This document shows, in pieces, positions 60,094 to 64,000 of a DNA stretch of 64,000 bases. The DNA is from Limimaricola pyoseonensis (GTDB lineage: Bacteria; Pseudomonadota; Alphaproteobacteria; Rhodobacterales; Rhodobacteraceae), in NCBI RefSeq assembly GCF_900102015.1, contig NZ_FNAT01000002.1, positions 434,001 to 498,000 of the forward strand, written 5' to 3'. A program made the position numbers and the translations under genes. Position 1 is the first letter of the stretch. Each line of letters starts with the position of its first letter. The notes under the pieces were generated by a model. That model did not search any database and was not told the DNA's origin. It worked only from the letters and a program-made list of their open reading frames with translations.

Positions 60094-60603
60094 ATGAGCG
60101 TTCATTCCAGCCTCGAACCGGCCCTGACGGGCCCGCGCGGGGCGGCCTTCATGGCGAGTTACCTCGACGGGCTGATCCTGATCGAGCGGCTGCACAGGTT
60201 GCTGCTCGACGTCATCAAGGACGAGTTCGAGCGGGTCGGCGTGATCGAGATCAACGCGGTGCAGGCGCTGCTGCTGTTCAACATCGGCGACCACGAGGTC
60301 ACGGCGGGCGAGCTGCGCAGCCGCGGCTACTACCAGGGCAGCAATGTCAGCTACAACCTCAAGAAGCTGGTCGAGGCGGGCTACATGCATCACCAGCGCT
60401 GCCGGGTCGACCGACGCTCGGTGCGGGTGCGCCTGACCGAGAAGGGGCACCGCGTCCGCGACATCGTCCAGAAGCTGTTCGAGGGGCACGCGCAGGGCCT
60501 GTCGTCCCGCGGCGTTCTCGACCAGGTCGCGATCGAGGACGTGACGATGTCGCTGCGCCGGCTCGAGCGGTACTGGGCCGACCAGATCCGCTACATCTAC
60601 TAG
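60094..60603 (+). CDS. ldtR: MarR-type winged-helix regulator, LdtR-like
   Basis: 169 aa. ASYLDGLILIERLHRLLLDVIKDEFERVGVIEINAVQALLLFNIGDHEVTAGELRSRGYYQGSNVSYNLKKLVEAGYMHHQRC carries the wHTH; the GYYQGSNVSYNLKKL recognition helix and YLDGLxLIERLHRLLLDVIKDEFER segment match LdtR of Rhizobiales, which controls an L,D-transpeptidase gene. DRRSVRVRLTEKG is the wing. Start at 60094 after AGAGGGAGAATTGAG. The 73 bases before it are AT-rich and probably contain its promoter. No ldt gene is in view. Confidence 0.88.
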   Translation: MSVHSSLEPALTGPRGAAFMASYLDGLILIERLHRLLLDVIKDEFERVGVIEINAVQALLLFNIGDHEVTAGELRSRGYYQGSNVSYNLKKLVEAGYMHHQRCRVDRRSVRVRLTEKGHRVRDIVQKLFEGHAQGLSSRGVLDQVAIEDVTMSLRRLERYWADQIRYIY

Positions 60604-61307
60604 CCGCGGCGCGCCGGGACGGGCCGGGCGCCGATCGCCAGTGCGCGCAGCTCGCGCAGGAGCTTGCGGCGCATCGCCGCCTCGTAGTCGTCGAACCCGA
60701 TCGCGGTCTCGACGAAGGCGTCGGCGCCGCGGATGACATAGGCCCGGAAATAATCGACCAGCGGCGCGGCGCGGCCGGGCGCCTCGGGCGCGACCAGCAG
60801 CGCGTTGACGGTCACGCCGGGCGGCGCGGCGCCGGTGTCCTGCGGACGCGGCCCGGCATTCGACGTGCCATCGGCCGAAAGGTCGAGCGTGTGCCTGTCG
60901 CAGTCGGGCTGGGCGGCCAGGAGGGCGTATCCCTCCCCCATGGCGCCGCCGAGCGCGGTGGTGGGGCCGAACCCGGCCCGCCGGGCCGAGCGGATCTGCC
61001 GGGCGGCGGCGGAGAGCGCCGCCGCGCCGTCGATCCCGGTCCATGGCAGAATCAGCCGGGTCTCGCCCGGCCCGCTCCATTCGAACACCGCCAGCCGGAC
61101 CGGCGGCATGGCCGGGTCGAGTAGCGCGGCCGCGACATCGGGCGCCGTGAGCGCCGCCGCCACGCCGTCGCGCTGCAGCGCGTATTCCCGCGCGTCGACC
61201 GAGCCCGAAACGTCGAGCCCCAGCACCAGCGCCTGCCGGCAGCCTTGGGCGGCCACGCCATCGGCCAGCCCGGCCAGAAGCAGCGCGCCGCAGATCGCCC
61301 GGATCAT
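60600..61307 (-). CDS. DUF1194 (von Willebrand A-like) secreted protein
   Basis: 235 aa. Signal peptide MIRAICGALLLAGLADGVAAQ. LVLGLDVSGSVDAREYALQRDGVAAAL is the MIDAS-like DxSxS. AVFEWSG, GFGPTTALGGAMGEGYALLA (Thr of the MIDAS) and TLDLSADGTSNAG complete the DUF1194 pattern. The end (AYVIRGADAFVETAIGFDDYEAAMRRKLLREL) is typical. Role unknown; likely metal-dependent adhesion in the periplasm. It overlaps the ldtR-like gene end by four bases, tail to tail. Confidence 0.9.
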   Translation of the reverse strand: MIRAICGALLLAGLADGVAAQGCRQALVLGLDVSGSVDAREYALQRDGVAAALTAPDVAAALLDPAMPPVRLAVFEWSGPGETRLILPWTGIDGAAALSAAARQIRSARRAGFGPTTALGGAMGEGYALLAAQPDCDRHTLDLSADGTSNAGPRPQDTGAAPPGVTVNALLVAPEAPGRAAPLVDYFRAYVIRGADAFVETAIGFDDYEAAMRRKLLRELRALAIGARPVPARRG

Positions 61308-61311
61308 CCCG

Positions 61312-61740
61312 TTACCAGTGGCCGGTGTTCTCCATGCTGGCCCAGGGCTCCTGCTTGGGCAGCGCGTCGCCGGCCTGCAGCAGCTCGACCGAGATGTTGT
61401 CGGGCGAGCGGACGAAGGCCATGTGGCCGTCGCGCGGCGGGCGGTTGATCGTGACACCGTTCTCCTGCAGGTGCCGGCAGGTCTCGTAGATGTCGTCGAC
61501 CCGGTAGGCGAGATGCCCGAAATGCCGGCTGTCGGAGGGCAGCGCATCGTCGCCGTCCCAGTTCCAGGTCAGCTCGACCGGCGTCTCCTCCTGGCCCGGG
61601 GGCGCCATGAAGACCAGCGTGAAGCGGCCGCCCTCGTTCTCGATGCGGCGGGTCTCCTTCAACCCGAGCAGCTCGTAGAAGGCCATGCTCTTCTCGAGAT
61701 CCTTCACCCGGACCATGGTGTGCAGATAGGTCAATGCCAT
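61312..61740 (-). CDS. gloA: Lactoylglutathione lyase (glyoxalase I)
   Basis: 142 aa. It converts the methylglyoxal-glutathione adduct to S-lactoylglutathione. YLHTMVRVKDLEKSMAFYELLGLKE holds the first His ligand, VELTWNWD a Glu, FGHLAYRVDDIYETC the second His and NISVELLQAG the second Glu, all four metal ligands expected of GloA. The start at 61740 follows GAAAGGGAACACGCG. It lies just upstream of the DUF1194 gene on the same strand. Confidence 0.95.
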   Translation of the reverse strand: MALTYLHTMVRVKDLEKSMAFYELLGLKETRRIENEGGRFTLVFMAPPGQEETPVELTWNWDGDDALPSDSRHFGHLAYRVDDIYETCRHLQENGVTINRPPRDGHMAFVRSPDNISVELLQAGDALPKQEPWASMENTGHW

Positions 61741-61804: not shown

Positions 61805-63163
61805 TCAGAAGCTCGAGACGACGCCGAGATCGAGGCTGAGCACCTCTTCGTCGTAGAGGTCCGCGTTCGACCAGTTCCGCCCGGCCTCGAGCCGGATCTC
61901 GGGGTGAAAGCCCCAGCGTTCCGCCCGCGGCATGCCGATCCGCGCCTCGGCCGTGAGGCGCCGGTCCTCCCGCTCCTCCAGCACGTAGCGGCTGCTTTGG
62001 TAGTCGCGCCATTCGGCCGTGAGGCCGACCCCCAGATCGGCCGGCCCGAACCGCCGCCCGAAATCGTAATCCGCGGCGAGGGTCAGCCCCTCGTAGCCGA
62101 GATCCGGGCGGTCGGTGCGGGCCTCGCGCCAGTCCAGCGACAGGCTCGCCCGGTCGCGCCCCAGGGCGCGCGTCACCCCGACCCCGAGGCCCGGTTTCCA
62201 CCATCCGTCGTCGAGATCGAGCCGCTCGACCCGGGTCGTCTCGGCCGAGAGGCTCAGATCCGTGTCGCCATCGATCGCGAAGCTGCGGCGCAAAGCCAAG
62301 CGCAGCCGGTTGGAGAGCGGCGCGTCGTCATAGGCGTCGCGCGCCAGCTGCAGCGACAGCTCGGCCGGGCCGCTCCAGCCCTCCTGGCGCCAGGCATGCC
62401 GCAGCCCGACCGAGGCGCTGGCCTGCGCGTAGTCGCTGCCGCGGGCCTCGGGCGCCTGCCGGCGCGCCGCGTCGCTCAGGAAATGGGTGCGGCCGGAAAG
62501 ATGCAGGTCGGCCGAGGTCATCGAGCTGCGGTCGGCGCGCAGCCGGTAGCGCAGCGCGACACCGGCCGAGACGGTCGCGCCCGACAGCGCCCGCGCGTCC
62601 CCCGACAGCGTGAAGTCATAGGGCAGGCCGGGCAGGCGCAGGGTTTCGGTGTCGCTGCCGCCATTGACGTTCGAGGAGGGCGCCACGCCGAAGGTGAACT
62701 GCATCGAAAGGGGGTTGCGGGCACGGACCGCCTGGTAATCGCGGCGCAGTTCGGCCCGCGCGTTCGGGCTCGGCGCGTCGGGCAGGGCCCGCCGCAGCCA
62801 GAACTGCGACCGGGTGTAGGCGCCGCTCCTCGCATGCGCCAGGGCGACGATGCGGGCGGCGCGGAACCGGGCCGGCCCCTCGAGCCGCGGATGCGCCCGC
62901 GCAGCGAAGCCCTGAGCGGCGTCGAGGTCGCCGCGCCGCAGGGCCGCCTCGGCGGAGATCATCAGCCCCGTCGGCTCGTCGGGGGCGTATTGCAGCAGGC
63001 GGCGCGAAAGCGCCTCGGCCTCATCCAGCCGGTTCTCGCTAAGCGCGGTCACGGCGAGGCCGCGCAGCCGCTCGACGGAGAGGCTGGCGGGCGCGGCCGG
63101 CGCGGCAAGGGGCAGCGCCAGCAGCAGCGCCGCCGCCGCCAGGGCGGTGATCGTCGATCGCAT
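61805..63163 (-). CDS. Slam-like outer-membrane translocator (TPR plus DUF560 barrel)
   Basis: 452 aa. Signal peptide MRSTITALAAAALLLALPLAAPAAPA. Residues about 30-155 are TPR-like helices: LRGLAVTALSENRLDEAEALSRRLLQYAPDEPTGLM, SAEAALRRGDLDAAQGFAARAHPRL. From about residue 160 there are alternating beta strands of a barrel (FGVAPSSNVNGGSD, ASASVGLRHAW, LSLSAETTRVERLDLDDG, GVTRALGRDRASLSLDW), ending LDLGVVSSF with the C-terminal Phe of BAM substrates. A TPR domain plus a DUF560 barrel is the Slam/type XI secretion architecture. The start is coupled to the upstream cargo gene (TGATG). A barrel without Slam activity is the alternative. Confidence 0.75.
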   Translation of the reverse strand: MRSTITALAAAALLLALPLAAPAAPASLSVERLRGLAVTALSENRLDEAEALSRRLLQYAPDEPTGLMISAEAALRRGDLDAAQGFAARAHPRLEGPARFRAARIVALAHARSGAYTRSQFWLRRALPDAPSPNARAELRRDYQAVRARNPLSMQFTFGVAPSSNVNGGSDTETLRLPGLPYDFTLSGDARALSGATVSAGVALRYRLRADRSSMTSADLHLSGRTHFLSDAARRQAPEARGSDYAQASASVGLRHAWRQEGWSGPAELSLQLARDAYDDAPLSNRLRLALRRSFAIDGDTDLSLSAETTRVERLDLDDGWWKPGLGVGVTRALGRDRASLSLDWREARTDRPDLGYEGLTLAADYDFGRRFGPADLGVGLTAEWRDYQSSRYVLEEREDRRLTAEARIGMPRAERWGFHPEIRLEAGRNWSNADLYDEEVLSLDLGVVSSF

Positions 63164-64000
63164 CAGTCGCGATACGCCGTGAAGCCGCCGGTTTCCTGCA
63201 CCCGGATGTCTTCCAGCCGCGGATCCTCGGATTCGAAGACCAGAATGCCCGTGACCTCGCCGCCGGTTTCGAGGTCGCCGCTCAGCACCCCGAAATACTC
63301 GCCGGCCTCATAAGGCTCGGCCTTGCCGTCGACCACCACCAGGTTGTTCAGCTGGCCCACGATCTCGCCGTTCGGGGTGGAGGCCGCGTCCGTCAGCACG
63401 AAGCGGACCGTCGGCAGGTCGAGGATCGCCCGGTCCGACAGGTCGGTCCGGCGCACGCCGCTGGTGTTGGTCTCGATCTCGAGCCCGTCCTCGTCGAAGG
63501 CGCGGCGGTTGGAGAGCGTGCCGCGCACGCCGTCGGAGGCGTTGAAGTCGTCGAAGTCGACCAGCACCTCGATGTCGCCGGTGGTGAACTCATGCCGCGA
63601 GATGGTGTCGAACACCCGAATGCCCGCGTAATCGCCGCGGAAGGCGGCCTGCCCGCGGGCCGGGATCTCGACCCCGCCATTGCGCTCGTAGAGGAAGCCG
63701 CCGAAGCCGAAGTTCGAGAAATCGCCGGTGCGCACCACCGCGAAGCGGGTGCGGGGCAGCCGTTCGCCATCGACCCGAACGGTATTGATGCTCTCGCCGT
63801 AGATGGCGCGGTAGTCGAGCTGGTCGATCGGCTCGGAGCCGCCGGTCTCGACCTCGGCCGCGCTCTGGAACACGGCATAGCCGTTGAGCGTGCTCGGCCC
63901 GCGATAGTCGCTGCGATAAGGTTCGGTGCCGTCGAAGGCGAGGTTGTCGACCTCCAGCCGCGCGCCGGACAACAGCGTGACGCGGCGCACGAAGCCGCCA
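63163..64000 (-). CDS. TbpB-like beta-barrel surface protein, Slam cargo candidate, partial
   Basis: The last 279 or so codons; the N-terminus, including any signal or lipobox, lies beyond the right edge. The frame is open to 64000, and the GTG at 63990 is internal. Beta-rich, with patterns seen in the TbpB barrel: FGGFLYERNGGVEIPARG, AAFRGDYAGIRVFD, TGDIEVLVDFDDFNASDGVRGTLSNR, then GEIVGQLNNLVVVDG and AGEYFGVLSGDLETGGEVTGILVFESED. No long low-complexity. A TbpB/HphA-like fold next to a Slam-like gene suggests the exported cargo. The ligand is unknown. Confidence 0.6.
   Translation of the reverse strand, partial: GGFVRRVTLLSGARLEVDNLAFDGTEPYRSDYRGPSTLNGYAVFQSAAEVETGGSEPIDQLDYRAIYGESINTVRVDGERLPRTRFAVVRTGDFSNFGFGGFLYERNGGVEIPARGQAAFRGDYAGIRVFDTISRHEFTTGDIEVLVDFDDFNASDGVRGTLSNRRAFDEDGLEIETNTSGVRRTDLSDRAILDLPTVRFVLTDAASTPNGEIVGQLNNLVVVDGKAEPYEAGEYFGVLSGDLETGGEVTGILVFESEDPRLEDIRVQETGGFTAYRD

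Follow-up and report, generated by a model that had tools for sequence, protein, structure and literature searches.

Among the closest described systems, Slam1 of Neisseria combines a TPR domain with a 14-strand barrel, according to the available part of PMC5449769, and the Slam1/TbpB pathway has been reconstituted with components that include Skp and LolA, according to that of PMC9090332. A nearer class of locus, the marine cluster 3 locus of the type XI secretion system (T11SS), was published in 2025 on the basis of bioinformatics (PMC12282271). As far as the available text of that paper goes, the only proteins with verified type XI secretion were seven of cluster 1 from animal-associated bacteria, the cargo lipoproteins of marine cluster 3 measure 282-375 aa and 0.21 predicted cargo was counted per translocator by the method used there. 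In the same text, the cargo was said to be missing in 1 of 11 strains, Pseudooceanicola marinus LMG 23705, and below-threshold similarity was one explanation offered by the paper itself. Among the literature matches listed, we recognised no experimental work on a pair from cluster 3.

We analyzed a window of 64,000 nucleotides from Limimaricola pyoseonensis, at one end of which a translocator gene adjoins the gene of a lipoprotein, called the cargo below. The gene order is thyX - cargo - translocator - glyoxalase - DUF1194 (positions from the cargo onwards in Table 1), so that thyX, the glyoxalase, the DUF1194 protein and the cargo lipoprotein, the features of marine cluster 3 membership, were all present around the translocator. 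The cargo stop and the ATG of the translocator overlap by 1 base (TGATG), a junction that the first-pass annotation had already read in the sequence. The cargo gene is truncated by the end of the window, and the GTG start listed for it at 63990 is an artefact of that edge. The sequence beyond 64000, which the same annotation had proposed to inspect, was found in the genomic contig and gave both the true cargo start, 257 nt further out (L002 8258), and the lipobox. Aminotransferase, HTH and Sdh5-family genes were also detected near the pair by a Pfam scan of the neighbours; we take CptB, a gene kind in the published marine cluster 3 list, to be the Sdh5 family. The DUF1194 protein has a signal-peptide-like start and a DVSGS (MIDAS-like) motif, both read by eye. 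No promoter- or terminator-like sites were found in L002 5700-8500, a result that is uninformative. Since the pair is conserved across relatives, it does not represent a chance ORF. Overall, the two genes very probably form a one-translocator type XI secretion pair, in which the translocator would display the lipoprotein on the cell surface. The lipobox, the folds, the family membership, the pairing, the correlated divergence and the presence of LolA and Skp-like genes were computed, as described below.

Table 1. Position and main features of the pair and of its neighbours in the window.
Feature	Position	Strand	Details
T11SS/Slam-type outer-membrane translocator	61805..63163	-	452 aa; signal peptide ~1-26, TPR helices 30-149, 14 predicted long strands 152-450, C-terminal Phe
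Cargo, TbpB/fHbp-fold lipoprotein	63163..64000	-	Window holds residues 87-364 of 364: handle domain and C-terminal 8-strand barrel
Glyoxalase / lactoylglutathione-lyase-like protein, conserved neighbour	61312..61740	-	142 aa; PF00903 E 3.7e-20
DUF1194 protein, neighbour in many relatives	60600..61307	-	235 aa; PF06707 E 2.3e-60

The translocator had been assigned a Slam (DUF560) architecture from its letters alone, and the signal peptide, the TPR helices, a predicted 14-strand barrel and the C-terminal Phe were all found. Its N-terminus (MRSTITALAAAALLLALPLAAPAAPA) appeared signal-peptide-like by eye and its C-terminus reads ...SSF, the final Phe being present in 88 of 94 translocator relatives. 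The AlphaFold2 model (pLDDT 94.1, pTM 0.83) placed seven helices in residues 30-149 and 14 long strands in residues 152-450. The nearest solved folds among the matches listed were PelB, BcsC and porins, and no solved Slam structure was present among the 50 PDB fold matches listed. At the sequence level, the protein gave just two weak, unrelated matches in the PDB (E 0.7) and only weak TPR-type matches in NCBIfam, and its profile matched TPR and designed helical proteins of the PDB on the TPR part (best 60 of 103). The DUF560 search proposed in the first-pass annotation gave a divided outcome. The protein alone stayed below the threshold of PF04575 SlipAM (19.2 bits against a cut-off of 22, E 9.5e-4, confined to residues 382-439), whereas 33 of 48 translocator relatives matched this family at E<=0.01, with a best value of 4.2e-11. 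A profile of 70 translocator sequences aligned by hhalign with 17 SlipAM-positive proteins of other families at E 7.1e-38 over 404 columns, in a comparison run without a control barrel family, and both profiles had in common SN(V/I)N at the barrel start and a C-terminal SN..LYD region. The absence of a SlipAM match in a search of the own genome is uninformative, as 0 of 14 controls matched either. Overall, the 452-aa protein very probably belongs to the outer-membrane proteins of the type XI (T11SS/Slam) kind.

Translocator homologues were present in 107 of 198 family genomes, and among named relatives the nearest was that of Limimaricola hongkongensis (best segment 69%, with very near records possibly left out). 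The translocator set kept 94 of 101 sequences, after removal of those that were truncated at the end or had no start close to the aligned one; alignment A1 comprises 48 of the 94, and A4 the window protein with 69 of 75 named translocators. At G038:C11:930320-931672 and G184:C1:1071557-1074075, translocator or cargo copies had an internal stop or were matched in pieces, and are possibly decaying copies or assembly errors.

The full-length cargo of 364 aa begins with MIRLLSTAALLALLAGC, continues with GDGQPFDF and carries the lipobox LLAGC at residues 13-17 within an SPII-type signal peptide, as detected by our own pattern search. A cytoplasmic N-terminus, which the first-pass annotation had named as the outcome that would speak against its reading, was thus not observed, and all the cargo motifs it quoted were present in the translation. 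An acidic, low-complexity linker precedes the folded part, whose model (residues 87-364; pLDDT 91.5, pTM 0.89) shows a handle of short strands and eight C-terminal barrel strands at 117-277 of the model. The structure predictions suggested at the outset for both proteins gave TPR plus 14 strands for the translocator and a C-terminal 8-strand barrel for the cargo. NHBA and hemophilin belong to the T11SS cargos or are related to them. Among the structural PDB matches of the cargo model at E<=0.001, 28 of 29 were fHbp (some of them chimeras), TbpB, NHBA, hemophilin or HpuA, the odd one being PsbO; TM-scores against known cargos were modest (TMq 0.33-0.41). By sequence, the cargo itself had no significant match in Pfam, TbpB_B_D and FHBP_C included (one match at E 0.06 fell below its cut-off), and no match in NCBIfam or among PDB sequences. 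Its relatives (n=83) matched TbpB_B_D in 15 cases (best 2.7e-9) and FHBP_C in 14. The best PDB matches of the cargo profile were TbpB, fHbp and the uncharacterized 146-aa protein 2pma, none of them significant (E 0.096-0.15). As the cargo has no TbpB_B_D or FHBP_C match of its own, it is a distant relative by fold and family and not a member of these Pfam families. The term TbpB-like, used in the first-pass annotation, consequently holds for the fold and the distant family, and does not extend to the transferrin-binding TbpB group. With a single-sequence search, cargo homologues were detected in 49 of 198 family genomes. Alignment A2 comprises 83 of 85 cargos (L113 and L150 were left out), and profile A5 the window part with 57 of 69 named cargos, from source genomes that partly overlap the other survey genomes. 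Besides a complete pair, genome G165 has a second cargo homologue at G165:C79:3395-4291, on a contig without a listed translocator match.

We surveyed the pairing at 101 translocator loci (our own and 100 fetched, the weakest partial places being left out), and counted a locus as paired if, in the same orientation and no more than 500 nt upstream of the translocator, it had either a cargo homologue or an ORF of 150 aa or more with a lipobox. At least 1 kb of upstream sequence was available at 96 of the 101 loci, and 90 of these 96 had such an ORF. Neither a lipobox ORF nor a cargo homologue was found upstream at 11 of the 101 loci, 5 of which have less than 1 kb upstream. Our lipobox pattern was present in 88 of the 90 upstream ORFs, cargo profile A5 (E<=1e-3) confirmed 88 of them (the exceptions being L106 and L113), and 49 were found by the window cargo as a single query. 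For comparison, 419 control ORFs with lengths of 400-700 aa were taken from 800 kb of family DNA, and the same lipobox rule retained 16 of them. A cargo was present in 88 of the 91 loci where thyX or the glyoxalase is conserved, and all 49 cargo-positive genomes also possess the translocator, G115 having the two genes on separate contigs. In the named survey, a lipobox ORF or cargo homologue was observed upstream at 74 of 80 loci (69 by lipobox and another 5 by homology alone); of the six remaining loci, L251 is a true miss and the other five have less than 1 kb upstream. For P. marinus LMG 23705, we detected a 342-aa cargo homologue without internal stop between thyX and the translocator (L242:3851-4879, NZ_PGTC01000010.1); another assembly or annotation of this strain may have been used in PMC12282271. 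Three translocator homologues (L100, L135 and L153, from genomes G140, G163 and G129) had neither thyX nor the glyoxalase nearby nor a cargo upstream, and represent either paralogues with another task or translocators whose cargo lies elsewhere.

Over 66 loci, the mean identity was 30% for the translocator and 33% for the cargo, compared to 80% for thyX and 75% for the glyoxalase. The distances of translocator and cargo were correlated (rho 0.464), with a partial correlation reached by 0 of 500 permutations, whereas those of either partner with thyX or the glyoxalase gave rho of -0.006 to 0.055. At the 46 loci with DUF1194, the correlation within the pair was rho 0.505 (0 of 300 permutations); considering both sets, either partner against thyX, the glyoxalase or DUF1194 stayed between -0.05 and 0.07. 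The correlation between thyX and the glyoxalase is itself weak (rho 0.17-0.24), so noise or saturation may partly account for the lack of correlation of the pair with these two genes. The comparison is further limited by saturation at low identity and by the paralogues that occur in the DUF1194 family, of which the best match per locus was used. A6 left out two wrong ORFs (L289 and L299) and the near-duplicate L292. When cargo and translocator were split into domains, the co-varying parts could not be told. Within Limimaricola, identities ranged over 45-95% for the translocator, 43-97% for the cargo and 88-98% for thyX. Surface proteins usually evolve fast; therefore, we did not count this within-genus divergence as strong evidence.

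These data bear on the identity of the substrate. As raised in the available part of PMC12282271, the true substrate could be the DUF1194 protein or another neighbour, the upstream lipoprotein being incidental or a second substrate. DUF1194 indeed lies near the translocator at 56 of our 83 loci with long flanks and at 102 of 145 loci in that paper. The same 83 loci have thyX in 67 cases, the glyoxalase in 75 and a lipoprotein or cargo homologue in 79, the DUF1194 count, by homology alone, being possibly low. In contrast to the pair, translocator and DUF1194 distances were uncorrelated (rho 0.018, reached by 110 of 300 permutations), as were those of cargo and DUF1194 (-0.047), so that the translocator correlates with the lipoprotein and not with DUF1194, which points to the lipoprotein as its partner. 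Moreover, six other Limimaricola loci (L182, L183, L184, L186, L187 and L188) keep the pair with no DUF1194 match at E<1e-10 in the fetched flanks, and the DUF1194 fold is described in the available text of PMC12282271 as mixed alpha/beta, not as an 8-strand barrel. We consequently regard a neighbour as the true substrate as improbable. The best PDB folds of the translocator, PelB and BcsC, would also fit a TPR-porin that exports a polysaccharide. However, no polysaccharide synthesis family was found among the eight neighbours scanned (one of them without any match), the PelB and BcsC families were absent from the 18 Pfam families matched by the 48 relatives that include the SlipAM-positive ones, and the partner of the translocator is a lipoprotein with a Slam-cargo fold. 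Polysaccharide export is the least probable of the explanations considered, and barely credible.

Because the cargo shares its fold with TbpB, HpuA and hemophilin, we also considered a co-receptor role like that of TbpB for TbpA, in which the cargo could hand a nutrient (haem, iron or cobalamin) to a TonB-dependent receptor. The first-pass annotation had noted no TonB receptor in view, and this now extends to the whole genome (99.99% complete), in which searches for PF07715 Plug, PF00593 TonB_dep_Rec and PF03544 TonB_C gave no match, with 3 of 14 controls matched per search. Across the 198 family genomes, the translocator was not associated with Plug (both in 60, translocator only in 47, Plug only in 50, neither in 41; p 0.89), and a Plug match was thus absent in 47 of the 107 translocator-bearing genomes. 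As neither a TonB receptor nor a TonB C-terminal domain was found, a hand-off to such a receptor is unlikely, and we give the co-receptor explanation very little weight. Most likely, the cargo acts on its own as a surface binder or adhesin, rather than as the co-receptor of a TonB transporter. Going further, and with less than even confidence, we suggest that a TbpB-fold lipoprotein without TonB receptor could serve a TonB-independent task (adhesin, decoy or shield), and that translocator and lipoprotein could diversify together as a single, rapidly evolving surface pair whose place between slow core genes is fixed.

Returning to the type XI secretion pair, its translocation steps and the surface location of the lipoprotein can be proposed by analogy with the Neisseria system. 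The lipoprotein would be exported by Sec and lipidated at Cys17, then carried by LolA and probably kept unfolded by a Skp-like holdase; Skp-like and LolA genes were both found in the own genome. Once received by the TPR domain of the outer-membrane protein, the lipoprotein would be moved by the barrel across the outer membrane, and its own C-terminal 8-strand barrel would fold outside. The cargo would finally hang on the surface by its lipid and its long acidic linker, with the handle domain outward. A motif behind the lipidated Cys could contribute to this export. The pattern C-(1-5 small or polar residues)-[NQ]PF was observed in 46 of 88 cargos and in 0 of 40 control lipobox ORFs under the same filter, and a looser pattern in 64 of 88 and 2 of 40, respectively. 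In L002, the site corresponds to cargo residues 17-22, just past the window, and the linker behind it is variable. Earlier controls, which either were too small or had been filtered differently, gave 0 of 18 among other lipobox ORFs from these loci (DUF1194 in many cases), 2 of 8 for the looser pattern within 400 kb of the own genome, and 0 or 2 of 24. The motif may be an added N-terminal export signal, or may be explained by the common ancestry of the cargos with no function needed.

Compared to the Neisseria pairs Slam1/TbpB, Slam1/fHbp and Slam2/HpuA, the translocator has the same TPR and 14-strand organization, and the cargo is likewise a lipoprotein with an N-terminal handle and a C-terminal 8-strand barrel. 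In contrast, cargo identity is only ~10-15% in the structural alignments, the cargo consists of a single handle-barrel lobe and searches of the genome revealed no TonB receptor. The structural matches of the cargo also include hemophilin (HphA) of Acinetobacter baumannii (7re4). Hemophilin is not known to be lipidated, whereas the cargo described here has a predicted lipidation.

The closest likeness is to marine cluster 3, which in the available text of PMC12282271 has the same thyX, cargo lipoprotein with a C-terminal 8-strand barrel, T11SS outer-membrane protein, lactoylglutathione lyase and DUF1194, as well as neighbours of the same kinds (aspartate aminotransferase, HigA-1 and CptB). Since this locus class is already described there, the pair is not new as a kind. 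Its particularities are the Limimaricola-like strain and the one-base overlap of cargo and translocator. At the level of the survey, the cargo is near-universal upstream of the translocator here, whereas the ratio given in the available part of that paper is low. Our results thus add to the published description the near-universal upstream cargo, the P. marinus cargo, the correlation of translocator and lipoprotein and a TonB-free genome, and they correct the impression left in print that a cargo is rarely found beside these translocators. The TonB-free setting of the pair is unusual and separates the TbpB-like lipoprotein fold from TonB-coupled nutrient uptake. Overall, compared to the cluster 1 systems, the pair and its relatives offer a compact test case for type XI secretion outside that cluster.
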